Shown: piece after piece, positions 50,228 through 64,000 of the stretch | Position numbering within the stretch: position 1 is the first letter of the stretch | How the letters are laid out: each line of letters starts with the position of its first letter | NCBI RefSeq assembly: GCF_001606025.1 | Contig: NZ_CP014945.1 | Coordinates: 3,100,001-3,164,000 of the forward strand | Direction: 5' to 3' | Length of the DNA stretch: 64,000 nucleotides | Source: Psychrobacter alimentarius | GTDB taxonomy: Bacteria; Pseudomonadota; Gammaproteobacteria; Pseudomonadales; Moraxellaceae | Position numbers and translations under genes: made by a program | The notes under the pieces: model-generated | Database searches by the model: none | What the model saw: only the letters and a program-made list of their open reading frames with translations | What the model was told of the DNA's origin: nothing

Positions 50228-50318
50228 GGTGAAGTGGGTGAGTGGCTGAAACCGCACGCCTGGAAAGTGTGTATACGTTAATCGCGTATCGAGGGTTCGA
50301 ATCCCTCCTTCACCGCCA
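50228..50318 (+). tRNA. tRNA-Ser (GGA anticodon)
   Basis: A 91-nt class II tRNA with CCA encoded. The acceptor stem GGTGAAG pairs with CTTCACC; the anticodon loop is CTGGAAA with anticodon GGA at 50262-50264; there is a long variable arm and a T-arm GAGGGTTCGAATCCCTC. It matches E. coli tRNA-Ser(GGA) well. Its 3' end is the integration site for the element that follows. Confidence 0.97.
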
Positions 50319-50463
50319 ATCTTATAAAAACCTAGTTTTCCCATCTTGTCCTAAATACTCCTATATCTCTCTGTAAACCTTTATAAATAACGCGTCTAGC
50401 GTTTTTTTTATGTCTACTGTTTTCCCAAGCTATCCGAACATAACCCACCTATTCCGTGGCTTG

Positions 50464-50602
50464 TGTTGGTCTATTCGTTGGTCTATGATTCATATACACC
50501 GTAATTAGACCAACATTCGATCTAGATTTATATGCCTTAGACCAACATAATCGTCTTAAAGCTTTAAACATATAGCTCGTAGGTATAGGAAATAGACCAA
50601 CA
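50464..50602. repeat. Five TAGACCAACA motifs upstream of the integrase
   Basis: Copies at 50506-50515, 50538-50547 and 50593-50602 in forward orientation, and inverted at 50464-50473 and 50476-50485 (one mismatch). The last overlaps the integrase ATG. They look like arm-type binding sites for the integrase between attL and the gene, and could also let it repress itself. Confidence 0.75.
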
Positions 50603-51960
50603 TGTTAAGTGATAGTAAGATCCGTAAGCTCAAACCCACTGATAAATGCACCCCTTCTCGTCCAGATAAATATAGCGATCATCAAGGTCTACAATTGCTC
50701 GTGCGTAGCACTGGTACAAAGTCATGGATAAGTGCTTATCGCTTTGATGGTAAGCAGCAAAAAACTACTTTAGGTACATACCCACAGATGAGCTTAGCAG
50801 AAGCTAGAGGTGCTAACGCTGATATTAAAACTTTAGTAGCTAATGGAATCAATCCAAAAAATAAAAAGCGTCAAGACAGACTTGCGAACGAGCAAGCTAA
50901 AATGTTCAATGATTATGCGCTTGAATGGCTAGAGGAGCGTGAGCGCAACGTAAAGCCTCGCACTTATCAGCAAGACTATAACCGTATGCATAAAGACGTG
51001 CTGCCGAGCTTTGAAGGCATCGCTTTAAAAGATGTAACATTCGAAGATTGCAAATCGATGGCAGACAAAATTGAAAGTAGGGCTGAAAAAGGAACACCGC
51101 CACGAGAAGTAACCAGACGTACTATTGATCTCGTTGGCAATATTCTCAAAAGAGCTAAGAGAGAACGTCTAATTGAGGTAAATCATACAGAAGGGTTAAA
51201 AGAGCTATATCCGAAAGCGAAAACTAAGCACATGAAACACGTTGAGCTTAGTCAGCTACCTAAGCTCTTACAAGACATTGAAAGCTACCATGGTCATGAC
51301 CAAACTCGATTGGGAATGAAATTTCTAGCCTATTCATTCTGTCGTACTATCGAGCTACGTATGATGAAATGGGAGCATATCGACTTCCCTAACCGTCTAT
51401 GGCGTGTTGATATCGATAATCTTAAGATAGCGCGTAAGCATGTTGTTCCTTTATCAGATCAGATGCTAGCAGTGTTAGAAGAGATGAGACCCATTACAGG
51501 TCAATATGAATACGTGTTCTATCATACTGGTATGCACCAGCCTTATAGCGAAGAATTCATTAATAATGCTTTAGACATCCTTGGCTACGCTGGCAAGCAA
51601 ACTGGTCACGGATTCCGGCATATCGCCTCAACTAACCTAAACGAGCTTGGCTATATGGGCGATGCCATCGAAAAGCAGATGGCACATGATAAGAAAAGTA
51701 GCATCCGCGCAGTTTATAACCACGCGCAACACTTAGAGGAACGACGCAAAATCATGCAGGTTTGGGCAGATTTTTTAGATCTACTCAGAGACAAAGGTGA
51801 AGTTGTAGACTTTCAGACAGCACGGCAACAGATTGAGAGTTCTTTAGCCAAATCTGAGAATGGATTAACGAAACACAGGAAAAATATAATGATAAACGCT
51901 TTACTAGATCAAGGTTTGACTATAGAAGACTTAAAACGATTCATCATTTCTGAAGACTAG
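50602..51960 (+). CDS. Tyrosine integrase (P4 type, DUF4102)
   Basis: A site-specific recombinase of 452 residues. The N-terminal arm-binding DUF4102 domain (LSDSKIRKLKPTD, GLQLLVRSTGTKSWISAYR) is followed by a core-binding domain and the catalytic domain with Arg248 (CRTIELRMMKW), HGFRH (His336, Arg339), His362, and Tyr372 in RAVYNHAQH. All catalytic residues are intact. It lies 283 bases after tRNA-Ser(GGA), whose 3' end is the attachment site. The frame runs on past the core for about 60 more residues. Confidence 0.95.
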   Translation: MLSDSKIRKLKPTDKCTPSRPDKYSDHQGLQLLVRSTGTKSWISAYRFDGKQQKTTLGTYPQMSLAEARGANADIKTLVANGINPKNKKRQDRLANEQAKMFNDYALEWLEERERNVKPRTYQQDYNRMHKDVLPSFEGIALKDVTFEDCKSMADKIESRAEKGTPPREVTRRTIDLVGNILKRAKRERLIEVNHTEGLKELYPKAKTKHMKHVELSQLPKLLQDIESYHGHDQTRLGMKFLAYSFCRTIELRMMKWEHIDFPNRLWRVDIDNLKIARKHVVPLSDQMLAVLEEMRPITGQYEYVFYHTGMHQPYSEEFINNALDILGYAGKQTGHGFRHIASTNLNELGYMGDAIEKQMAHDKKSSIRAVYNHAQHLEERRKIMQVWADFLDLLRDKGEVVDFQTARQQIESSLAKSENGLTKHRKNIMINALLDQGLTIEDLKRFIISED

Positions 51961-52163: not shown

Positions 52164-53267
52164 TCAAATCTTAACATCATATCTATCATTACCGTTATTA
52201 TTCAAATACTTGAGTTCATATTCTTTGTTAATCAACCGCTCAAGAATAGCAGAATCTGATAGTCCTTCGATAATAGATATCTTGTTCAACCTATCTTTGG
52301 TATTTTTAGTTAATGGTAGGTGATATTGTTTTTTTACCATTCCTGAGTCACGATGTACCTTCTGATTCCAAGATTTTTTCATTCTATCTATAAACTTCCT
52401 CTTAGAATCTGTCTCCTTATATTTTCGATTTTCTAGACCAAAAGATTCTATATCTATAAAATCAAGAGCTGCTAATAACACACTATGAAAATGTTCAGTT
52501 GAACTTATGCCTCTAATACCATTAATGTAACATCCTTTGTCTTCAAGATACTTTTTTAACCATTTTATTTGGTAATCATCAGCAGTTTCAATCCAATTTG
52601 TGTAGGTACATTGGTCATATATATCCGACCACAACAATCTAGCATGATCCATGATTTTTATCTTTTTATTTTTATCTTGAAATATATGATCTATGCTATA
52701 ACTATCAAACAACTCATAAATGCATTTAATTACATACCCGTGTTCATCAACTAATATGTCTCCGTATTCAGGTGGATATAGATATCCAGTAACATCTTTA
52801 TTGCCAATTTTGTTTTTATTGAGTATCTCTAAATTGAATAAAGATCTTAAATATATCAATATAAAAAATTGAGCTCTTAAATCTCCATATAACCATTTGA
52901 AATATTTTTCCTCAATAAAGAAAATTTCTTCCATAGTCTTTAAAGATTTTTCTATCTCAGGATAATTTTTATTTCTTAAAATATATTTGATAAAATCTTC
53001 TTTATCTATTTTTTTATATTCATAATTATGATTATAAACAGGATAGCGATTATGAAAAAATACAAGACTGTTTAACTTTCTTTGACTTAATCCTTCTATT
53101 TTTGTAATAAAAGCAGCTTTGTGTTCACTAATATTATTGAGTTGTCTTTCATTATCTTTCATAGTCATGACCTTGTTCGTATAAAAATATGCTATCACGC
53201 GTGATAAAACTGAAAACAATCTGAATATTTTACCTATTGTATGTAAAATCGGCAATATTTCTTTCAT
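52164..53267 (-). CDS. Unknown protein with RHH-like C-terminus
   Basis: A 367-residue protein from the ATG at 53267, which has an AAGGA site; the gene is visibly AT-rich compared with its neighbours. No enzymatic motif is seen in the long helical body. The C-terminal 50 residues, with KKQYHLPLTKNTKDRLNKIS and LSDSAILERLI, resemble a ribbon-helix-helix DNA-binding unit. One or two hydrophobic patches at the N-terminus are not enough to call a membrane protein. It is convergent with the integrase. Unrecognised; it could be an element regulator. Confidence 0.65.
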   Translation of the reverse strand: MKEILPILHTIGKIFRLFSVLSRVIAYFYTNKVMTMKDNERQLNNISEHKAAFITKIEGLSQRKLNSLVFFHNRYPVYNHNYEYKKIDKEDFIKYILRNKNYPEIEKSLKTMEEIFFIEEKYFKWLYGDLRAQFFILIYLRSLFNLEILNKNKIGNKDVTGYLYPPEYGDILVDEHGYVIKCIYELFDSYSIDHIFQDKNKKIKIMDHARLLWSDIYDQCTYTNWIETADDYQIKWLKKYLEDKGCYINGIRGISSTEHFHSVLLAALDFIDIESFGLENRKYKETDSKRKFIDRMKKSWNQKVHRDSGMVKKQYHLPLTKNTKDRLNKISIIEGLSDSAILERLINKEYELKYLNNNGNDRYDVKI

Positions 53268-53615
53268 GCTTTCCTTCACTCTTAAGACACAATAGACTTG
53301 AATGTTAAGTGAAAAATTCACTTAAGATTTTTTCTTGATCTCAATATAATTTTATTTTCTCAAAAATCATGATGATAATTTAAATATTTATCAACTAAAA
53401 ATCGTAACTCCCCATCTAGAGAAATGACGCATAGATAGGCTTTTTCAAAAACTAAAGCTATGCTACAGCGTGGTATTTTTTGATCTTAAAATCCGGTTAT
53501 TAATATTATTAATAAAATATAAGCCATAAGCAGATTCGCTAATCACTCTCACTATTGAAAATAATAATTTACTTATTTGCCTAAGATTATGAACGTATAA
53601 CTTTAGGTAGATAAC
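53268..53615. other. Divergent region with a perfect palindrome
   Basis: Spacer between the RHH-tailed gene and the Gp2-like gene, AT-rich. It holds the palindrome at 53497-53515 and presumably both promoters. No open frame was accepted. Confidence 0.55.
53497..53515. repeat. 19-bp perfect palindrome
   Basis: TTATTAATATTATTAATAA, 9+1+9, lies about 100 bases before the Gp2-like gene. It may be an operator for the RHH-tailed protein or part of an AT-rich replication origin; both are inference. Confidence 0.5.
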
Positions 53616-54554
53616 ATGATCATCCCAAACTTAAGCCATGAGGTAGTAGTCGCTAAAGTCGACAAACTTGTGAGCGATATCCTTAACCCTAAAAATCGAA
53701 TTAGCATTCAACAAATTAGTTATCGACTAAATCTTTATTATCAGCCAATGACACTGCTCTACAATAACGAACTAAAATACACGAACTCGATAGAATGGTT
53801 TATAGGCAGCTGCTACCTTGTTTGCGGTAATTGCTATCCTCATGAGGTTTTTTGGGATGAGGCGATGGCAGAGAGTTTTTTGAATGCGCTAAATTTTTAT
53901 CAGTACGAGTATGCCACTGATAAAGCAGATTTTGCTTTTCAAGAACAACGCAATAGCCAATCACTTATGGAATATATGAGTTATTACTTAGAGAAATATG
54001 CACGTGTGCTTATCGTAAGAGTAGATCTTAAACTGAAAGTAGAGTTTGCACACCTTGTTGACACTGAGATCTTTCAGGGTTTCATGAATCAGCTTATGGT
54101 AAAAATCCAAAGAGACAGAGAAAAGGAAAAGAAAAGGAAAAATGGAAAGTTAGCAAATGCTAGTAAAGGCTGTTTTGAGGATCTAAGGGGTTATGCTTGG
54201 GCTATAGAGCAGGGTATTGAGACTGGTGGTCTACACTGTCACTTAGTTTTGATTTATAACGGTGATAAGCGTCAGAAAGACTGGTTTTTAGGCGATACTG
54301 TTGGTAAGAGATGGGTTGAGATTACAGAGGGTTTAGGCTGGTATTACAATGGTAATACCTCTAAGCGTAAAGCACGCTATAGGCGTCGAGGTAAGCTCGG
54401 TATAGGGATGATTGATAGAGACAAGCCTTTAGAGGTGAATAACGCTATTAATGCAGCGCTGTATCTAGCTCGCCCCAACAAGTATGAGCAACGCCTCAAA
54501 TCTTGGCCACTTAACATGCGTAGCTTTGGTCGCGGGACTCTACCTAATAGCTAA
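53616..54554 (+). CDS. Inovirus Gp2-like (YagK/YfjJ) protein
   Basis: A 312-residue protein with the YagK/YfjJ C-terminal domain, also called the inovirus Gp2 family. The HxH core is in TGGLHCHLVLIYNGD (His207, His209), followed by VGKRWVEIT and, near the end, NAALYLARPNKYEQ with a conserved Tyr. HUH-type replication initiators share the HxH pattern, so a single-strand initiator or relaxase role is possible; this is inference from fold similarity. No zinc cluster is seen. It precedes a terminator at 54654. Confidence 0.82.
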   Translation: MIIPNLSHEVVVAKVDKLVSDILNPKNRISIQQISYRLNLYYQPMTLLYNNELKYTNSIEWFIGSCYLVCGNCYPHEVFWDEAMAESFLNALNFYQYEYATDKADFAFQEQRNSQSLMEYMSYYLEKYARVLIVRVDLKLKVEFAHLVDTEIFQGFMNQLMVKIQRDREKEKKRKNGKLANASKGCFEDLRGYAWAIEQGIETGGLHCHLVLIYNGDKRQKDWFLGDTVGKRWVEITEGLGWYYNGNTSKRKARYRRRGKLGIGMIDRDKPLEVNNAINAALYLARPNKYEQRLKSWPLNMRSFGRGTLPNS

Positions 54555-54653
54555 GTAGTACTCAACATATACGATATCAAAATAATTTCAGATACATACT
54601 ACCTCCATGAGATCGAGCATTAGCGTCCTAGTGCTTATCCTACTTTACCCATT

Positions 54654-54681
54654 AAAGGTCTGCCTCGTGCAGACCTTTTTT
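54654..54681 (+). terminator. Terminator after the Gp2-like gene
   Basis: AAAGGTCTGC at 54654-54663 pairs with GCAGACCTTT at 54669-54678 and is followed by T residues. It precedes the small zinc-ribbon gene by about 25 bases. Confidence 0.9.
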
Positions 54682-54705
54682 ATGCCATTAATAAAAGGAA
54701 TCCTT

Positions 54706-55002
54706 ATGAAACCAGTATGTCCACATTGTAAGTCATCTAGCGTTGATGAGATGACTAATGGAACTAACCACACTATGAATGAGATGCTGTTATCACCTAC
54801 TGTATTGATCAGTATTAGCATCAGTCTATGCAGATCATTTAACGTTCATCCAGCAGTTGGCGTTATTGCAGGTACTGCAATCGCAACGTTATTCAAAATG
54901 TCTCAATCGAACAATGCTCTACCAATGCTGATTAATCAGCAGTATCGCTGTGAGGACTGTATTCACATGTTCTCAACCATCCATTCATTTGATTCAATCT
55001 AA
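54706..55002 (+). CDS. Small zinc-ribbon membrane protein
   Basis: A 98-residue protein starting MKPVCPHCKSSSVDE. Cys5/Cys8 and Cys82/Cys85 (CPHC and CEDC) form a zinc ribbon whose two halves flank a hydrophobic region, LLSPTVLISISISL and PAVGVIAGTAIATLF, which probably inserts in the membrane. An AAGGA site precedes the ATG; a longer frame from 54607 includes the terminator and is rejected. The family is not recognised. Confidence 0.65.
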   Translation: MKPVCPHCKSSSVDEMTNGTNHTMNEMLLSPTVLISISISLCRSFNVHPAVGVIAGTAIATLFKMSQSNNALPMLINQQYRCEDCIHMFSTIHSFDSI

Positions 55003-55046
55003 CTAAACCATCAACTCACTAAATAACACTTAAAAGGAAAATCAAC

Positions 55047-56042
55047 ATGGCACATTTAATCGAATCAATGGCATACGTCGGCGACACCCCATGGCACGGT
55101 CTTGGCAACGAGCTATCCCCCAAACAGCCGATTGAGGTCTGGGCGAAAGAGGCTAGGATGGATTGGCGTATCGAGTCCTCAGATGTCAGCTACATGGCCA
55201 CCAATGATAAAGGGCAAAACCTGATCATGCCTTATGACAATAACAAGGTACTGTATCGCTCAGACACGCTTGAGCCGTTATCTGTTGTCAGTCAGCGCTA
55301 CCAAGAAGTCCAGCCAAGTGAGATTTTAGAGTTTTATCGCGATCTGACTGAACAAGCAGACTTTGAGCTGGAAACCGCAGGGGTGCTTAAAGAAGGACGT
55401 AAGTTCTGGGCACTTGCACGTACAGGACAATCAGCGACGTTACGCGGCGGTGATATCAGTCATGGCTATCTGCTACTAGCGACCGCGTGTGATGGCACGC
55501 TTGCCACCACAGCACAGTTCACCAATATTCGCGTGGTATGTAATAACACTTTAGCGATCAGCTTGGCTAATGGTAGCGGCGGTGTGGTGAAAGTACCGCA
55601 TAGCACCACCTTTGATACCGAAAAGGTCAAACAGCAATTAGGCGTCTCCGTCAGCCAGTGGGATACGTTTAACTATGAGATGAAACAGTTGACCAATAGA
55701 CGCGTCACGCAAGCAGAAGCAGCCAACTATTTAAACCGTGTGTTTAATGATGTCAAAGACGATGGCCTCATTCTGTTTAATACGGCGAAGAAGGAAAAAG
55801 ATGCGGTTCCTAATGCAAAAGCGATGAATCAGGTGATGAGTATGTTTAACGGTCAAGGTCGCGGTGCAGATATGGCGTCCGCTAAGGACACGGCTTATGG
55901 GTTGTTAAATGCGATGACGGAATTTGTCGATCATGAACGCCGTGCCATGTCGCAAGATCATCGCCTTGACTCAGCATGGTTTGGGGCTGGTGCGAAGCTT
56001 AAAGACAAAAGCCTCGACGAAGCACTACGCTTGATTGCTTAG
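55047..56042 (+). CDS. DUF932 (phage/plasmid-like) protein
   Basis: A 331-residue DUF932 protein starting AHLIESMAYVGDTPWHGLGN, with ILEFYRDLTEQADFELETAG and VCNNTLAISL characteristic of the family. DUF932 proteins are carried by phages, plasmids and integrative elements, often next to YqaJ nucleases; their function is not settled. An AAAGGA site precedes the ATG. The gene has its own terminator at 56063 and is followed by the YqaJ gene. Confidence 0.88.
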   Translation: MAHLIESMAYVGDTPWHGLGNELSPKQPIEVWAKEARMDWRIESSDVSYMATNDKGQNLIMPYDNNKVLYRSDTLEPLSVVSQRYQEVQPSEILEFYRDLTEQADFELETAGVLKEGRKFWALARTGQSATLRGGDISHGYLLLATACDGTLATTAQFTNIRVVCNNTLAISLANGSGGVVKVPHSTTFDTEKVKQQLGVSVSQWDTFNYEMKQLTNRRVTQAEAANYLNRVFNDVKDDGLILFNTAKKEKDAVPNAKAMNQVMSMFNGQGRGADMASAKDTAYGLLNAMTEFVDHERRAMSQDHRLDSAWFGAGAKLKDKSLDEALRLIA

Positions 56043-56062
56043 ATAGTCTGATCTAATGAATC

Positions 56063-56090
56063 AACCACGCCTTTACGCGTGGTTTTTTTA
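56063..56090 (+). terminator. Terminator after DUF932
   Basis: AACCACGC at 56063-56070 pairs with GCGTGGTT at 56077-56084, then a T-run. Confidence 0.9.
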
Positions 56091-56153
56091 TGTCGTCAAT
56101 TAAGCAAGGCACATTTACAGATCACCAAGAATAAACTTAATAAGGAGTTCACT

Positions 56154-57308
56154 ATGAATATGATCGCATTAAACAATACAAATACGACTCAGCTAAAACC
56201 CAAACGTTCAGTCATGACAGGTAAAGCGTCTCGAACCGCTAAGTCTAAAACCAAGGGCAAACCAGCAGAAGTCACGCTAAAGCAAAATAAAACGGTTGAT
56301 AAATCTGTTCGAGCAAAGACAGTAACCACGCCTAAGCGTTTGGTCAACACCAAAGGCCTAAGCCATGAAGATTGGCTCAAAATACGCAGACAAGGCATTG
56401 GCAGCTCTGACGCCGCCGCTGCCTGCGGTATCCACCCATACTTGTCCATGCTTGAGCTATGGATGATTAAGACGGGACGCATGAGCTCAAACATGGATGC
56501 CAGTGATAATAATGGTATCGATGGGTATTCGCCGCTCTACTGGGGCAATACCTTAGAGCCGATGGTGGCTAAATACTACCAAGAGCATACAGCCAATAAA
56601 GTACGCCGCGTGAATGCTGTCTTGCAGCATCCTGATCCTGACAACCACTTTATGCTGGCGAATTTAGACTATGCAATAACAGGCAATGATGAAGTACAGA
56701 TTCTAGAGTGCAAAACTGCTGGTGAACACGGTGCGAAATTATGGAGAGATGGCGTACCTCTCTACGTCACCTGCCAAGTACAACATCAGCTAGCGGTCAC
56801 AGGCAAACAGGCGGCTCATATCTGTGTTCTGCTGTGTGGACATGAAGCGAAAATTTATAAGGTTAAGCGCGATGAGCACTTGATTGAATCCATTACTCGT
56901 CATGAGCGTCTGTTCTGGCAATACGTAGAAATGGATACGCCACCAACGCCTGATCATTCAGAATCTGCTGCACAAGCATTAAAACTGCTGTATCCAAAGC
57001 CTAAACCCTCAAGCAAAGTTGATCTACGAGGAGATGACGGTGCTAACAAACTGTTTGAGAAATTGCTAAGCTACCGCGCATCTATAGAAGACTTTGAGCA
57101 GAGTTATGATCAAGTGAAACATCAGCTACAAACGTTTATCAAAGACAATGAGGTTGCCATCTTTAATAAAGGCGCTATTTCTTGGAAGCGCTCAAAAGAC
57201 AGTGTTGGTCTTGATAGCAAAGCTGTCATAAAAGCCTATCCTGAATTGCTTAAGCAGTTTAGTAAAACAAAGCACGGCAGTAGACGCTTTGTCATTCTTA
57301 ACGACTAA
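56154..57308 (+). CDS. YqaJ-type viral recombinase (exonuclease)
   Basis: A 384-residue lambda-exonuclease-like nuclease. The YqaJ start HEDWLKIRRQGIGSSDAAAA is near residue 71; the PD-(D/E)xK site is Glu135, Asp172 and Glu185-x-Lys187 in ANLDYAITG and ILECKTAGE, followed by YVTCQVQHQLAVTG. About 65 basic, Lys/Thr-rich residues precede the domain. It degrades DNA 5'-3' to make ssDNA; an annealing protein was not seen in the window. The ATG at 56154 has AAGGAG; a frame back to 56079 is rejected. Confidence 0.9.
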   Translation: MNMIALNNTNTTQLKPKRSVMTGKASRTAKSKTKGKPAEVTLKQNKTVDKSVRAKTVTTPKRLVNTKGLSHEDWLKIRRQGIGSSDAAAACGIHPYLSMLELWMIKTGRMSSNMDASDNNGIDGYSPLYWGNTLEPMVAKYYQEHTANKVRRVNAVLQHPDPDNHFMLANLDYAITGNDEVQILECKTAGEHGAKLWRDGVPLYVTCQVQHQLAVTGKQAAHICVLLCGHEAKIYKVKRDEHLIESITRHERLFWQYVEMDTPPTPDHSESAAQALKLLYPKPKPSSKVDLRGDDGANKLFEKLLSYRASIEDFEQSYDQVKHQLQTFIKDNEVAIFNKGAISWKRSKDSVGLDSKAVIKAYPELLKQFSKTKHGSRRFVILND

Positions 57309-57333
57309 GCCATCAGTCACTTAACCATCAATT

Positions 57334-57360
57334 AATCAAAGCGAATCAAAGCGAATCAAG
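57334..57360 (+). repeat. Short tandem repeat AATCAAAGCG
   Basis: Two full copies and a partial third of a 10-bp unit, in the gap after the YqaJ gene and just before its terminator. Likely to be variable in copy number among relatives. Confidence 0.6.
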
Positions 57361-57370
57361 CAAGCACATA

Positions 57371-57400
57371 AAGCCCACCTATCTCAGGTGGGCTTTTTTA
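57371..57400 (+). terminator. Terminator after the YqaJ gene
   Basis: AAGCCCACCT at 57371-57380 pairs with AGGTGGGCTT at 57386-57395, followed by T residues. Confidence 0.93.
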
Positions 57401-57437
57401 TGGCTTATCAAAACAAAAACACATAAGGAATATAACC

Positions 57438-58349
57438 ATGATTAAAGGTCTCACGATAACCCCGCCAGTACTCGGTCGCATTAGCATCGGTAAAGTCGTT
57501 CAAAAAGACGGTAAGCGTCTCCCTGCTAAAGATGACCAATTCACTATCACTAGCCAAGTCCAAAATAAGGATGGCTGGATTAATCATCCACTTGATGAGA
57601 AGCTGCGGGCAAATAATGACGGTAAGCTTAGACAAATACCAGTGCGACTGCTCTTCAATGACCCTGAGCTGAATTTACGAGCAGAATACACGCTATTTGA
57701 TAGACAAACTGGACGCCCTCTTTGCGTAGGCGATGGCGAGCATTGCCAGCGTCGAACGAGCAACGGTGTTGAGCATATGCCATGCCCATCACCCGATCGC
57801 TGTCCACTAGCCCAAGGCGGTGCTTGTAAGCCTTATGGTCGTCTCTATGTCAATCTGAGTGAAGACGATGAGCTGGGTACGTTTATCTTTCGCACCACAG
57901 GCTTTAATAGTATTAGAACGCTTGCAGCACGGCTAAGCTACTTTGCAGCGGTGTCCGGTAATAAGCTGTCTTGCCTGCCACTCCAATTAACGCTACGTGG
58001 CAAAAGTACCATGCAAAGCTATCGAACACCAATCTACTTTGTGGATTTGACGCTACGTGATGACGTGACTTTAAAGCAAGCGGTACAAGATGCTGGTGCC
58101 ATTGACGCAGAGTTAAGTGAACACGGTTTTGACCAAGCAGCGCTAGAAATAGCTGCAAAGCAAGGCTATGTTAATTCTTGCTTTGAGGTTGATAGCGATA
58201 ATCTATTGGATGTGGCAGAAGAGTTTTATCCATTAGAGACGGATGAGACTAATAGTAATGATCAAGGAGGGTCGCAAAATGGTATTGCGCCCTACAATGT
58301 CGGCAATATTGAAAGGAGTCTAAGGGAGAGTGTGACAGCTGTAAGTTGA
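57438..58349 (+). CDS. Gp3-like cysteine-cluster protein
   Basis: A 303-residue protein related to a family often annotated as hydrolase or metal-binding and, by distant similarity, to phage recombination directionality factors of the Gp3 type. It has a cysteine cluster (Cys96, 103, 116, 122 and 130: PLCVGDGEHC, MPCPSPDRC, GGACKPYG) that probably binds zinc and an FIFRTTGFNSIRTLAARL core. With DUF932 and YqaJ it makes a recurrent triplet on integrative elements. The function is not established. The tail after EEFYPLET is polar. Confidence 0.75.
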   Translation: MIKGLTITPPVLGRISIGKVVQKDGKRLPAKDDQFTITSQVQNKDGWINHPLDEKLRANNDGKLRQIPVRLLFNDPELNLRAEYTLFDRQTGRPLCVGDGEHCQRRTSNGVEHMPCPSPDRCPLAQGGACKPYGRLYVNLSEDDELGTFIFRTTGFNSIRTLAARLSYFAAVSGNKLSCLPLQLTLRGKSTMQSYRTPIYFVDLTLRDDVTLKQAVQDAGAIDAELSEHGFDQAALEIAAKQGYVNSCFEVDSDNLLDVAEEFYPLETDETNSNDQGGSQNGIAPYNVGNIERSLRESVTAVS

Positions 58350-58375
58350 AGCAGTGGTAAGGATATACGGCATAA

Positions 58376-58407
58376 AAGGGAGTTGATTATTCAGCTCCTT
58401 TTTTTAT
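58376..58407 (+). terminator. Terminator after the Gp3-like gene
   Basis: AAGGGAGTTGA pairs with TCAGCTCCTT (one G-U), followed by six T residues. Confidence 0.85.
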
Positions 58408-58439
58408 GTGATTGATAAGGAGTACGCACGGTCAATATA

Positions 58440-58470
58440 GGACACCGTAAAAAAATATGGGACTCCGTAA
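58440..58470 (+). repeat. 20-bp-spaced direct repeat before alpA
   Basis: GGACACCGTAA at 58440-58450 and GGACTCCGTAA at 58460-58470, differing in one base. The 20-bp period is two helical turns, as expected for two protein dimers on one face of the DNA. It lies about 45 bases before the AlpA-like gene. Confidence 0.55.
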
Positions 58471-58514
58471 CTGTATGAGAGGAAATGCTCTCAATAACTC
58501 ATAAGGAGCTAGTC

Positions 58515-58775
58515 ATGGAAAATTTGAATACAAGTACTCAGAAAAATACTTCAATATCAAGTATGCCACAAATACCTCGCATGCTACCGCTAAAGCAAGT
58601 CATACATTACACAGGACTTAGCAGTACAACTATTTACGATATGCTAGATAAAAAATCAAACCGTTACGACTCTACCTTTCCTGTTCAGGTCAAACTATCT
58701 AAGGGGCGCGTAGCATGGATTGAAAGCGAAGTTGCGCAATGGATTGAAGATAAAATAGCTGCTCGTATTCATTAA
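58515..58775 (+). CDS. AlpA-type regulator / excisionase
   Basis: An 86-residue AlpA-like protein from the ATG at 58515, which has an AAGGAG site. The helix-turn-helix is MLPLKQVIHYTGLSSTTIYDM, followed by FPVQVKLSKGRVAWIESEV typical of the AlpA/MerR-like wing. AlpA proteins control integrase or excision in P4-type elements, so it may help excise the island. A direct repeat at 58440 is a candidate operator. Confidence 0.87.
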   Translation: MENLNTSTQKNTSISSMPQIPRMLPLKQVIHYTGLSSTTIYDMLDKKSNRYDSTFPVQVKLSKGRVAWIESEVAQWIEDKIAARIH

Positions 58776-58782
58776 AAGGCAA

Positions 58783-58817
58783 AAAATAAGCCGCACTACG
58801 CGGCTTATTTTTTTTTA
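58783..58817 (+). terminator. Terminator after alpA
   Basis: AAAATAAGCCGC pairs with GCGGCTTATTTT; A and T runs on both sides make it usable in either direction, and it could equally end the leftward pseudogene. Confidence 0.93.
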
Positions 58818-58990
58818 GTAAATTTCCAGTTTGTGTATTGGCATCTAAATAATTGAGTGAGTTATCTAGCCATCTCAAGCAAGGTGAGAATTACAAGCAA
58901 TTTACTAAAAGTAATTGAGACTTATCTATTACATGAAAACAAGCAAGCCTTTTATACACCTTATCTTGAAAATTAGGGTTCAAAGAACCA
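58818..58990. other. Gap between the alpA terminator and the pseudogene
   Basis: An AT-rich stretch of 173 bp; nothing recognised. Confidence 0.4.
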
Positions 58991-59442
58991 TTATCTTTTC
59001 TTCTTATCAGCGATATCGAGTATTTCAGTGTTCTGTTTTTGGTCAAAAAGTGGCTCCTTTTCAGATTCAAATTGTTTGAACTTTAGCAGTCTTACTTACG
59101 CAAAATCATGGATGCTAGTGTTAGCTTTCTCCAATGTTTAATTTAGCTGACTAATCTGCTGTTGGTATTGGTAGTTATCTATCAGCTACCTTTAGTCACT
59201 GGCTTGTCGTCGCAGATGGGCAACCTTTAGTTTTTCCAGTTCCAGTTATTGTTCAAGTACTATACAGTTCTGTATAGTCTGACTATTGGATTGCGTTCTA
59301 TCAGAAACGTTCAGTGATTGTTCAGTACGTTCTTTAAGAATTGGCTCGCCAAATACCCAAAAGATCTTCGCAGTGTGTATTTTTTTGTCTGCTGTTCTAG
59401 CTATTCATCTTTGAATTCCTCATAGATGTTTTCTCCTGCCAT
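58991..59442 (-). pseudogene. Decayed Gln-rich coiled-coil gene
   Basis: Read leftward from ATG at 59442 (MAGENIYEEFKDE) to TAA at 58991 (DIADKKKR). The frame breaks once, in an A7 run at 59380-59386, and contains six internal stops. Joined across these it gives about 150 residues, with a coiled-coil-like Gln/Glu/Leu/Lys-rich middle (YQYQQQISQLN, TLEKAN). All six stops (TAA or TAG) are one C-to-T change from a Gln codon. The preserved amino-acid bias argues for a formerly coding gene. Family unknown. A 9+2+9 palindrome lies at 59259-59278. Confidence 0.6.
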
Positions 59443-59735
59443 GTCTTATTCTTTTGTGGCTTTTGTTACTGATATATTTATTGTCAGCATAGTGGCCAAG
59501 TACGTTTTTAGTAACTTCTAAACACACTATGCAGTGTCATAAGTGAAAAACATAAGGTTATTACTTTGTAGGATCAGTAAATTTATCGAAACGACATTTG
59601 TAGCTGAAACTAACGTTACAAAATCTAAGCTTACTACTTATGTAATAAGTATTGATTATTTTAATTGCTTCATATAAGCTTCAGTTTGTAACTTAAAGTA
59701 ATTAAGTATCTTGCTGATTTAATAGGAAAATATAG
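59443..59735. other. Gap before the methyltransferase operon
   Basis: About 290 bp, AT-rich, between the decayed gene and the N6-adenine methyltransferase. It presumably carries the operon promoter; no clear -35/-10 pair or coding frame was seen. Confidence 0.5.
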
Positions 59736-61361
59736 ATGAAGACTGAGTTGTACGCTCTAATATTAAATTACATAAACGAAAGCTATAAAGAGCATGAGAA
59801 GAGAGCCATATTTTCAGAGTTGGCTACGTTGATTGAACCAAGTTATTTGCAAGGTGATAGTTCAGAACTCACTAAGAGCGACTATGGCTCTGTACAGCGT
59901 CGGTTGTCTGTAATAAATGAAAAAGAGAGTATAAGAAAAAAGAAAGGTGTTTATTACACGCCTTTAGATTTAGTAAATTTTATTATAAATAACACCGTTA
60001 AAGAGTTGTATGGAGTGTTAACGCCTGACAACTTAAGTGATTCTTCACTAGATGCAATCAAGGTTGAAGATTTTTGCTTTAAAAAGACTTGTTATGATCC
60101 TACCTGCGGTACAGGTGAGTTTCTAATAAACACATTAATACTAAAATATGATTTAGCTGAAGCTAAATCGCTATCTTTAACCAAGGCTAAAATACAAAGA
60201 ATTGCTAAAACAATTTTTGGTAACGATATCAATCCTGAATCAACACTAATTGTAAAGTTGCGAATCTTCCTATTGGTTCTAGATAAGTTTGGTATTAGTG
60301 CAATTAAAGGTATTTTCAGTGCTATTAGTGAGAACTATACTAATTACGATTTTGTATGCGAAGAACAACACACCGAATATGACTTAGTAATTGGTAACCC
60401 ACCCTTTGTCGAAGACTCTAAATACCGAGAAGACTTGCAAGAAAAATTCGGCAACATTTATGCGAATGTCTTACTCAATGCTGCAAAATCATTGCATAAA
60501 GATGGGGCATTTGGCTTTGTGATTCCAATCTCGTATATCTCAACGCCTAGAATGAAAAAAATACGAGATATACTAATCAATATAATGCCAAACCAATACA
60601 TATTGAGCTACGCTGACCGACCTGACTGTCTTTTCACTGGTGTTCATCAAAAGCTTTGCATTGTCATAGCGAAAAAATCCTCGACAGAATCTATCCATAC
60701 CAGTCAATACAATTATTGGTATAAGAAAGAAAGATCAGCACTATTTGATAAAGCATCAGTTGTTAAAAACGAATACAACTATCCTAGTTTTATTCCAAAA
60801 CTAGGAAATGAATTAGACCTCCGCATATACGAGTCAGTCTCAATCACTAAAGATGCCGCAGGTTCAAAAAGCCTTAAATATCTTCTTTCGAACGGTGATA
60901 TTCCTATCTATCTGAATATGAGAGCTACCTTTTGGATAAAAGCTTTTTTAGCTAAGCATGACGGTAGTGAATATAAAGAATACGGATGTGGAACTCATAA
61001 TGATGCTAGCCTAGCATTTTGCATACTTAACTCATCTCTATTTTGGTGGCATTGGGTGTGTATCTCAGATTGCTGGCATATAACTAATAAAGAACTAGCA
61101 GATTTCAAGATACCTACTAGATTGAATGAAGAGGATTACGCTCAGTGCTTAAAACTTGCTAAGTCTCTAGAGGAAAAACTTGAGGAAACTAAAAAATTCG
61201 TTGGCACCAAGCAGACTAGCCATGAGTACAAACATAAATTGTGCTTAGATGAAATCCATAACATAGATGATTTTATTAATTCGCTTTATAACCTTTCTGA
61301 AGAAGAAAGCGAATATGTTAAATCATTTGCTTATAAATACAGAGTTGGCGAAGGAAATTAG
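59736..61361 (+). CDS. N6-adenine DNA methyltransferase
   Basis: A 541-residue adenine methyltransferase of the Eco57I-like group. The N-terminal KKGVYYTPLDLVNFI (motif X, residues 71-76) is followed by motif I DPTCGTGEF (121-129, SAM binding) and the catalytic motif IV NPPF (221-224). The C-terminal half is likely to recognise DNA. No nuclease motif is seen, so it is probably a modification subunit. The next gene, a C5 methylase, starts one base after its stop, so the two are translated together. Visibly AT-rich, like the rest of the module. Confidence 0.87.
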   Translation: MKTELYALILNYINESYKEHEKRAIFSELATLIEPSYLQGDSSELTKSDYGSVQRRLSVINEKESIRKKKGVYYTPLDLVNFIINNTVKELYGVLTPDNLSDSSLDAIKVEDFCFKKTCYDPTCGTGEFLINTLILKYDLAEAKSLSLTKAKIQRIAKTIFGNDINPESTLIVKLRIFLLVLDKFGISAIKGIFSAISENYTNYDFVCEEQHTEYDLVIGNPPFVEDSKYREDLQEKFGNIYANVLLNAAKSLHKDGAFGFVIPISYISTPRMKKIRDILINIMPNQYILSYADRPDCLFTGVHQKLCIVIAKKSSTESIHTSQYNYWYKKERSALFDKASVVKNEYNYPSFIPKLGNELDLRIYESVSITKDAAGSKSLKYLLSNGDIPIYLNMRATFWIKAFLAKHDGSEYKEYGCGTHNDASLAFCILNSSLFWWHWVCISDCWHITNKELADFKIPTRLNEEDYAQCLKLAKSLEEKLEETKKFVGTKQTSHEYKHKLCLDEIHNIDDFINSLYNLSEEESEYVKSFAYKYRVGEGN

Positions 61362-61362
61362 A

Positions 61363-62454
61363 ATGAAAGTAATAGATCTGTTTGCAGGTTGTGGCGGCTT
61401 ATCCTTAGGCTTTATCCAGAATGGATTTGAGATTACTAGGGCAGTTGAATTTGATTCAGAGATTGCAAAGACTTATTCAAAGAATCATCCACAGACAGAG
61501 ATGATCGTGGATGACATCGGGAATATTGATAACGATAAGTACTTCTCTGAAGGTGAGGCTGATATTGTAATAGGTGGATGCCCTTGCCAAGGCTTTTCTA
61601 CAGCAGGAGCACGAATAAGAAAAGGTTTTGTCGAAGATCCTCGGAACTATCTTTTTAAGCACTTCCTGAATATTGTCAAAACAGTAAAACCCAAGATGTT
61701 TATTATGGAAAATGTCAAAGGTATGATGACTATGCAAAAGAGTGAGATTTTCCAAGAAATCCTTACTGCCTTATCAGATAAGGAAATCATGGATGGTGAG
61801 CAATATTACATCTACTTTAAAGTTTTGAAAGGAATTGATCTAGGAATACCGCAAAAGAGAGAAAGATTATTTATTATAGGTATAAAGGATAAAGATATAG
61901 ATTTTGAATCAATGCTAAAAGCCACCAAACAGAAAATCGTTGAAAATCACGAAGGGTTTTTCAACAATGTAAGTATTAAGGATGCTATCTCTAATATGCC
62001 TACTGTAAGCCTTAACGGAATAGTAGATAACCCAAGTCCTAATACAGACTATGAGAAGTATTTAGCATCTGCTAAACTAACCATAACTAATCATATAAAG
62101 ACAAACCATTCAAAAAAAGCGATAGAGAGAATGCGTCAAGTAGGTAATGGTGAGAACTTTACTAGTCTTAGCGAAAAAATAAACTCCGTGCATAGCGGCG
62201 CTTATGGTAGGCTATGCTGGGATGAGGTAGCACCTACGATAACTACCCGTTTTGACACCCCTGCAGGCGGCCGGTTTATTCATCCTACTGAGGATAGAAC
62301 TTTAACTCCAAGAGAAGCGGCTAGAATACAGAGCTTTCCTGATAGTTTTATTTTTGTTGGTAATAAAACTTCTATCTGTAAGCAGATTGGAAATGCTGTA
62401 CCACCAAAAATGTCTTTTTATTGGGCTAATTTCGCTCAAATTGCTTTAGGTTAG
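61363..62454 (+). CDS. C5-cytosine DNA methyltransferase
   Basis: A 363-residue cytosine-5 methyltransferase. Motif I DLFAGCGGLSLGF (4-16, SAM), motif IV GGCPCQGFS with catalytic Cys75, motif VI MENVKG (ENV), motif VIII QKRERLFIIG, and the C-terminal motif X QIGNAVPPK are all present, so it should be active. The AAGGA at 61351-61355 precedes the ATG by seven bases. It lies one base after the N6 methylase and ten bases before the McrB-like gene. Confidence 0.95.
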   Translation: MKVIDLFAGCGGLSLGFIQNGFEITRAVEFDSEIAKTYSKNHPQTEMIVDDIGNIDNDKYFSEGEADIVIGGCPCQGFSTAGARIRKGFVEDPRNYLFKHFLNIVKTVKPKMFIMENVKGMMTMQKSEIFQEILTALSDKEIMDGEQYYIYFKVLKGIDLGIPQKRERLFIIGIKDKDIDFESMLKATKQKIVENHEGFFNNVSIKDAISNMPTVSLNGIVDNPSPNTDYEKYLASAKLTITNHIKTNHSKKAIERMRQVGNGENFTSLSEKINSVHSGAYGRLCWDEVAPTITTRFDTPAGGRFIHPTEDRTLTPREAARIQSFPDSFIFVGNKTSICKQIGNAVPPKMSFYWANFAQIALG

Positions 62455-62464
62455 AGTATTAGTT

Positions 62465-64000
62465 ATGAATGAATTGCTACAAAGAAAGTTAGCAGAGCTT
62501 GATGCGCTGAACAAACTTGAGTGCTGGTACTTGGTAAAACAGCCTACTGAGTTTAGTACAATATGTTATTTAGTTTTTTTATTAAAAAGATATAAAGAAG
62601 AAAAACCTGAAAGCAGCTTAGAGCAGTTTATTGCCGACGAAACTGGGACATTAAAATCAATTAAACCTAATGCCAAATTTTCTACAAATTACCGAGCATT
62701 AAGGGTTGCAGCATTTTTTGGTTTGATAAAACTTGAATTTATCGCGGCAAATAACAGCTATAGAAATAGTTATGAGAATGCAGAAATAACAGAAGTTTTT
62801 GAAGAAATCAACGATAGATGTTCGGGTAGTTTTGAAGAAACCAACTTATATTCAGATATCATTCAAAGACAAATTGAGAAGATGTTTGTCAGTTCAAAGA
62901 TAGATGAGCAATCCGAAGATATTCGTTCTGAATTTCGTCTTTACCCTGCCATGTTGTTGTACAAAGTTCTAATCGAACTAGGACTAAGCCAAGGTGAATA
63001 TCGTATCTCTTTAAATGAGTACAGATACTTAGTAGTTACCACTGAAAAATTTGAACAGTACCTAGATACACTCGTATTAATAAAGTTACTAAGAGAAGAT
63101 GAGTCGATTATTACTGAATTTAATAAATTTGGCGATAAGTTTGACAACAGGTTGATCCAAGCGTTAAAACAACTTCCTACTCTTTCGATCGACTCTCAAT
63201 ATATAACGTTGATTCCTGAAAAAATTAACGAAGTAGCTTTGAAAGTTTTCGCATTTGAGCAAAATCCTCAAATATTCAATACAGTTGAATATATTGATTT
63301 TCTCTGTAGTAAAGTTGGCCTTTTTGAGCTACCTAATTTCAAAAGAGAGTTATTGTCAACGGATGCTACAAAAGTCGTTACTAGGCAAGATAGCTATAAG
63401 CCCTTGAATAACGATTACGTTGATAATAGGAAAGGCGACAACATCTTACTTTACGGCGTACCAGGTGCTGGAAAGAGTCATTTTATATCTAAGTATTATT
63501 GTGATGACTACGAAAAATTTGAACGAATTGTTTTTCATCCAGACTATATGAACACTGATTTCATTGGTCAGATATTACCTTCCATTGATGAAAACGGTGT
63601 CATTGCCTATAAGTTTACTGCTGGTGCTTTCACTAGAATTTTAAGAAAAGCTCATCTAGACCCTTCCAATCATTACTACCTAATTATAGAAGAGATAAAT
63701 AGAGGTAATGCACCTGCAATATTTGGCGAGATTTTTCAACTATTAGACAGAAACCAAGCGGGAGTTAGTGAATACGCTATTTCTAATAACTACATATCTA
63801 AAGAAGTATACGGTAGTGATGACCAACCAATAAGAATACCATCCAACTTAACGTTATTAGCGACTATGAATACTGCGGATCAAAATGTTTTTACACTTGA
63901 TACGGCATTTCAAAGACGGTGGCAAATGCGAATGATAGAGAACGATATTAATAAATGTGTATTTAAAGATACACATATTCTCGATACTACAGTTTCATGG
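62465..64000 (+). CDS. McrB-like AAA+ GTPase (partial, open at the right edge)
   Basis: An unbroken 512-codon frame that runs off the right edge. The first 320 residues, starting MNELLQRKLAEL, are unrecognised. The AAA+ part has Walker A GVPGAGKS at 331-338, a McrB-type GTP segment EEINRGNAPAIFGEIFQLLDR (409-429, given here split), and MNTADQNVFTLDTAFQRRW near 468-486, matching the McrB signature. McrB-type enzymes use GTP hydrolysis to move on DNA and drive a separate McrC-like nuclease. The gene starts ten bases after the C5 methylase, so it forms one operon with both methylases. The nuclease partner would lie beyond 64000. Confidence 0.85.
   Translation, partial: MNELLQRKLAELDALNKLECWYLVKQPTEFSTICYLVFLLKRYKEEKPESSLEQFIADETGTLKSIKPNAKFSTNYRALRVAAFFGLIKLEFIAANNSYRNSYENAEITEVFEEINDRCSGSFEETNLYSDIIQRQIEKMFVSSKIDEQSEDIRSEFRLYPAMLLYKVLIELGLSQGEYRISLNEYRYLVVTTEKFEQYLDTLVLIKLLREDESIITEFNKFGDKFDNRLIQALKQLPTLSIDSQYITLIPEKINEVALKVFAFEQNPQIFNTVEYIDFLCSKVGLFELPNFKRELLSTDATKVVTRQDSYKPLNNDYVDNRKGDNILLYGVPGAGKSHFISKYYCDDYEKFERIVFHPDYMNTDFIGQILPSIDENGVIAYKFTAGAFTRILRKAHLDPSNHYYLIIEEINRGNAPAIFGEIFQLLDRNQAGVSEYAISNNYISKEVYGSDDQPIRIPSNLTLLATMNTADQNVFTLDTAFQRRWQMRMIENDINKCVFKDTHILDTTVSW

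Follow-up and report, generated by a model that had tools for sequence, protein, structure and literature searches.

What does an N6-adenine methylase do beside a C5-cytosine methylase and a McrB-like AAA+ protein in one operon, and do the two marks belong to one site or to two? The question is raised by the end of a 64,000-nucleotide stretch of Psychrobacter alimentarius DNA (the window; NZ_CP014945.1, positions 3,100,001 to 3,164,000), which breaks off within the third of these genes. The features that bear on it are as follows, with positions past 64000 given in the extended window.

50228..50318, + strand: tRNA-Ser (GGA), the island attachment site
50304..50319, + strand: left att, a 16-bp direct repeat matching the end of the tRNA (partner at 67208-67223 in the extended window)
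50602..51960, + strand: tyrosine integrase of the island (PF00589, PF13356)
53616..58775, + strand: island core, with YagK/YfjJ, DUF932, YqaJ, Gp3-like and AlpA
59736..61361, + strand: M1, N6-adenine DNA methyltransferase by family, 541 aa (Pfam N6_Mtase/Eco57I over cut-off; NPPF at 221, PTCGTG at 122)
61363..62454, + strand: M2, C5-cytosine DNA methyltransferase by family, 363 aa (PF00145, 256 bits; PCQ, ENV)
62465..64000 in the window and on to 64324, + strand: R1, McrB-like AAA+ subunit, 619 aa (Walker A, EEINR, MNTAD)
64338-65603 in the extended window (L009:9338-10603), + strand: R2, LlaJI-type PD-(D/E)XK nuclease by family, 421 aa (PF09563, 113 bits)
65705-66301 in the extended window (L009:10705-11301), - strand: X, PD-(D/E)XK protein whose family has no name, 198 aa

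The operon and its predicted nuclease

The original prediction described three genes, separated by 1 and 10 bases, in a LlaJI-like organisation with one adenine methylase slot, and the reading frames, intact and on one strand, agree with it as do their motifs, with a further gap of 13 bases between R1 and R2. M1 exceeds the cut-off for both N6_Mtase (45 bits) and Eco57I (46 bits), with its Pfam family and motif order pointing to a gamma-class enzyme. The start of M2 was set at an internal ATG (MKVIDLFAGCGG), the longest open reading frame opening at 61267; its translation contains QKRER and lacks the pattern QR.R, the usual form of the motif sought in this way being QxRxR. R1 comprises a specificity domain (residues 1-300) and a motor (about 320-619) whose Walker A, EEINR and MNTAD motifs, at 331, 409 and 468, are all intact.

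A search past 64000 for a nuclease gene had been proposed, with the lack of such a gene and a McrB-like protein broken beyond the window named as grounds for rejecting the reading. R1 is whole, and is followed by R2, which matches PF09563 (RE_LlaJI) at 112.7 bits against a cut-off of 23.6, this being its only Pfam match at E 0.01, with no McrC family found. Residues P290-D291 and D303-A304-K305 of R2 are invariant in 17 aligned sequences, a PD...D/EXK pattern that the accessible part of PMC1459862 describes for R2.LlaJI, and the nuclease sought thus exists. The two methylase genes lie directly 5' of R1 and R2 on the same strand, as in a LlaJI-type module. The four-gene set is not a chance assembly, since 2,125 proteins reach E 0.001 or less in the R2 search and the order M1-M2-R1-R2 recurs in another phylum, the Bacillota.

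Operon and X sit in an integrative island of about 16.9 kb. Among 10 relatives matching the right flank, one (G094) has flanks 412 bp apart, about 250 bp of which are unmatched right flank, fitting an empty site, and three (G090, G047, and G096) have spacings of 14, 23, and 34 kb, fitting other insertions; in the other six the flanks are on separate contigs or widely spaced, which shows that the right flank does not hold its place everywhere. Matches to R1 at E 1e-20 occur in 7 of 105 genomes of the genus, at full length only in the window's own genome.

Methylase classes beside the motor and nuclease

An R2 profile recovered 132 encoding stretches in named genomes, the best 80 of which were kept and classed, with the labels DPPY, NPPW, and SPPY resting on motif search only. 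Relatives of both M1 and M2 are present in 11 of these best 80 loci, including one in which M1 is split (L065), one in which it is cut by a contig end (L069), and one with a partial M2 (L086); a further m5C gene lies upstream of M1 in L077 and L088. In 14 of the 80 an m5C methylase stands beside a small DPPY protein (233-269 aa), by motif a probable m6A and m5C pair. Two m5C genes, the class of LlaJI itself (pNP40, L098), are found in 29, NPPW and DPPY proteins in four, and two SPPY proteins in four, the remaining 18 being truncated or otherwise outside these classes (among them L067, with two m5C genes and a split R2). The original prediction had treated the adenine methylase in this slot as exceptional, which these counts do not support; as far as homology and motifs tell, an adenine methylase in a LlaJI-type locus is not unusual, and the layout is widespread.

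A proposed exchangeable specificity cassette

For comparison R1 was cut into R1-N (residues 1-300) and motor (301-619). A relative of R1-N, 44-60% identical, is present in all 11 loci with an M1 relative, with neither found in the other 69 loci, a few of which are truncated; in two of the 69 (L019 and L066) no R1 was seen. The classes are not told apart by the identity of the motor (42-63% in the 78 loci with a match) or of R2 (37-52% in all 80). Among these 80 loci, the closest R2, at 52%, is that of another Psychrobacter (L011), whose R1 belongs to a different class; identity between the two R1 proteins rises from 15% over residues 281-320 to 67% over 321-360. The same step, from 15% to 55%, is seen against R1.LlaJI, whereas R1 proteins of the window's class (L012, L. 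plantarum) resemble the window R1 on both sides of the boundary.

A quick R2 tree was built from 81 proteins, namely those of 77 of the 80 loci, leaving out three with R2 under 330 aa, together with the window, LlaJI, an L. plantarum plasmid, and L111, which forms a long branch. The window's class, with 14 rows, requires 12 changes, of which well supported branches force at least 10; shuffled labels give a mean of 13.1 and counts as low in 101 of 500. The L. plantarum R2, of the window's class, pairs with the R2 of a two-m5C locus in Enterococcus at a support of 100, and LlaJI R2 joins this pair at 91. All class labels together are clustered, requiring 38 changes where shuffling gives a mean of 45.1 (1 shuffle in 200 as low), as is the two-m5C class taken singly, with 18 against 24.4 (as low in 1 of 500). 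Within the window's class the five modules all correlate in their distances (r from 0.64 to 0.95), most strongly for motor and R2 (0.95), next for M1 and M2 (0.92), and least for R1-N and R2 (0.64). Taken together, the tree changes, the label clustering, and the distance correlations show that exchange between cassettes and motor-nuclease has happened repeatedly, the two travelling jointly in between.

We propose that M1, M2, and R1-N together make up a specificity cassette, swapped as one block on a shared motor-nuclease consisting of the C-terminal part of R1 and R2. Such mix-and-match evolution looks new, and points to the LlaJI/McrBC-like motor-nuclease as a general chassis for whole specificity cassettes. 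The cassette would carry the chemistry of the protective mark too, with the joint lying inside one gene, and swapping domains to retarget a motor-driven restriction enzyme becomes directly testable.

The predicted recognition domain of R1

The predicted structure of R1-N is mostly helical and matches the recognition domains of the Type IIS enzymes Nt.BspD6I, BpuJI, and FokI, with the model showing their winged-helix fold. In BpuJI and FokI, the recognition domain serves an enzyme with its own cleavage domain. By sequence, a search of the PDB with R1-N gave no match of interest, and the R1 proteins of L016, L021, and LlaJI matched McrB and otherwise only chance-level chains. A B3-fold DNA-binding domain is reported for R1 of a Helicobacter pylori LlaJI homologue in the accessible portions of PMC12707154 and PMC7680126; a B3 entry is absent among the structural matches listed for R1-N, an absence that, by the tool's own account, does not exclude this fold. 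In the literature searched, McrB was not found together with BpuJI, and together with BspD6I only in a general review (PMC4081073), whilst a survey of McrB diversity (PMC11090510) makes no mention of LlaJI, winged, B3 domain, or FokI. The predicted joining of a Type IIS recognition fold to a McrB-like motor looks new.

The linked gene X

Gene X, like the Type IIS-like domain of R1, had been missed by the original prediction. X agrees in size (about 190 aa) and in type (PD-(D/E)XK nuclease) with a ss.BspD6I-like small subunit; ss.BspD6I itself (2p14) is not among the 50 structural matches listed for X, with none under E 0.001 by Foldseek. Duplication of R2 was ruled out as its origin (profile comparison probability 0.1%), and X could be assigned to no named family, with no match in Pfam, NCBIfam, or PADLOC up to E 0.01, and none by sequence in the PDB up to E 5. 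Among 30 relatives of X there are scattered weak family matches only, some to PD-(D/E)XK families, and none of the 20 viral stretches fitting a pattern holds a relative.

X is linked to the operon without belonging to every locus of the class: X or a remnant is present in 4 of 12 genomes or records and absent from 8, and in the family of G239 it is missing from three of five genomes with M1. A weak partial match of 26 bits in G380, a genome without M1, was not counted as X. X is most likely an optional fifth component, a second nuclease that would serve the same site as R1 and R2. A linked, probable extra nuclease of this kind looks new, and extends the known components of restriction systems by a nuclease family that has no name.

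Proposed mechanism and alternatives

We consider it likely that the operon encodes a Type II restriction-modification system acting on an asymmetric site, with LlaJI-type (McrBC-like) machinery, an m6A/m5C division between strands, an exchangeable cassette, and an optional X. The site would receive m6A from M1 on one strand and m5C from M2 on the opposite one, leaving each daughter duplex with a mark after replication; homology favours the suggestion, made in the original prediction, of two marks for the two strands of an asymmetric site. R1-N, as a Type IIS-like winged-helix module, would bind the same site when unmethylated, with the R1 AAA+ ring and R2 then cutting, probably after nucleotide-driven movement along the DNA. 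A rather doubtful extension of this scheme has two cutting modes in one chimaera, R1-N at the unmethylated site either recruiting X to cut beside it or starting the R1/R2 motor to cut elsewhere, for which the 604-aa BspD6I subunit that recruits a 186-aa partner would be the model. On this view either mode would suffice for restriction, leaving X dispensable and accounting for its repeated decay beside M1.

M1 and M2 might instead mark two different sites, with one or neither guarding against R1/R2 and the other a fellow traveller. Methylases can indeed accumulate, as the extra m5C genes of L077 and L088 attest, but the co-occurrence of M1, M2, and R1-N as a set in 11 of 11 loci and the M1-M2 distance correlation, second only to that of motor and R2, make this improbable, as does the pairing of one recognition domain with two methylases, the pattern of asymmetric sites in the accessible parts of PMC3874165 and PMC4081073. 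It is very improbable that the McrB-like module is a Type IV enzyme attacking methylated DNA and merely adjoins a two-gene methylation unit. The R1 motor is McrB-like, with McrB matches in the PDB and 60 bits to NF008457 (cut-off 637); R2, however, fits RE_LlaJI, the R1-N model resembles the site-recognition domains of Type IIS enzymes, the operon's own methylases would turn the host into a target, and LlaJI itself provides a precedent.

That the operon is silent or decaying island cargo is also very improbable. Its G+C of 0.345, against 0.42-0.44 in the chromosome, marks a newcomer, and broken copies exist elsewhere, with X, M1, M2, and R1 all in pieces in L119, in addition to the split M1 of L065. 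In the window and its extension, however, all five reading frames (M1, M2, R1, R2, and X) are open with their catalytic motifs kept, and the protein database holds relatives 93% (R2) and 96% (M1) identical.

Comparison with known systems

LlaJI of Lactococcus lactis pNP40 shares the four co-directed genes, with two methylases, a McrB-like R1, and a PD-(D/E)XK R2, at identities of 51% for the R1 motor and 41% for R2. Both LlaJI methylases are m5C enzymes, whereas M1 of the window belongs to N6_Mtase/Eco57I with NPPF, and the window R1-N has no sequence match to that of LlaJI. LlaJI recognises GACGC and restricts DNA lacking methylation there, a site that cannot be assumed for the window's operon. 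R1.LlaJI showed no GTPase activity in vitro according to the part of PMC1459862 available. A limited look at the LlaJI literature yielded no characterised LlaJI-type system with an adenine methylase, none being described in the accessible text of PMC1459862, PMC11779793, PMC12707154, PMC7680126, or PMC3990576.

Type IV McrBC differs in its McrC-family nuclease partner, a family that R2 does not match in Pfam at E 0.01. The recognition domains of Nt.BspD6I, BpuJI, and FokI share the fold predicted for R1-N, but serve enzymes with a cleavage domain of their own, whereas R1-N is joined to an AAA+ McrB-like motor. LlaI of Lactococcus lactis pTR2030 likewise combines McrB-like restriction genes and methylation in a single operon, but with one methylase gene, and BsuMI may be a five-gene parallel.

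For the marks, Eco31I/BsaI offer a likeness, a gamma-type m6A methylase partnering a separate m5C methylase at an asymmetric site (PMC3874165 and PMC4659465, as far as accessible), and M1 matches the Alw26I/Eco31I/Esp3I methylase model weakly (46 bits, cut-off 353.5), although Eco31I has its own Type IIS nuclease in place of LlaJI machinery. HpyAVI of Helicobacter pylori, with m5C on CCTC and m6A on GAGG, likewise carries the two marks on opposite strands of a single site, as proposed here, but M1.HpyAVI is listed as beta-class (both from the available part of PMC3936762). The machinery is of LlaJI type and the marks Eco31I-like in kind, with m6A and m5C long known as strand partners in the accessible parts of PMC3874165, PMC4659465, and PMC3936762.

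Integration site and island cargo

The tRNA-Ser site at window positions 50228-50319 looks like an integration hotspot; its flanks lie 14-34 kb apart in genomes G090, G047, and G096, and the site is probably empty in G094. One further protein, for which a Pfam search returned no match, is possibly additional island cargo:

52164-53321, minus strand, 385-aa protein adjoining the integrase

A full-length copy of X, the PD-(D/E)XK protein linked to the operon, is present at locus L109 (G389:C3:69116-69748), with no matches to operon genes within ~9.5 kb either side of it, and the M1 of this genome lies on a different contig.

Variation in gene content and R1 length

Two relatives of the operon carry an extra methylase gene:

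L077:1271-2260, m5C methylase upstream of M1
L088:1262-2311, m5C methylase upstream of M1

The R1 proteins of these two loci, of 880 aa and 876 aa respectively, hold ~220 extra residues ahead of Walker A compared with the window R1. At loci L057, L061, and L062, two methylases labelled SPPY by motif adjoin a LlaJI-type R1 of 359 aa in each case, and in L057, the one examined of the three, Walker A starts at residue 49, leaving scarcely any space for a recognition domain.

Candidate regulation of the operon

A helix-turn-helix gene directly precedes M1 on two L. plantarum plasmid loci:

L099:3566-3760, 64-aa helix-turn-helix gene
L119:7213-7407, 64-aa helix-turn-helix gene

The M1 relative P0219 itself carries an HTH_17 domain (PF12728), and both this domain and the plasmid genes are possible regulators. 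The ~960 bases between AlpA and M1 (window 58776-59735) contain no ORF of at least 60 aa. This interval may hold control sites, since recognition sites within the promoter region of LlaJI can serve to control that system (PMC11779793).
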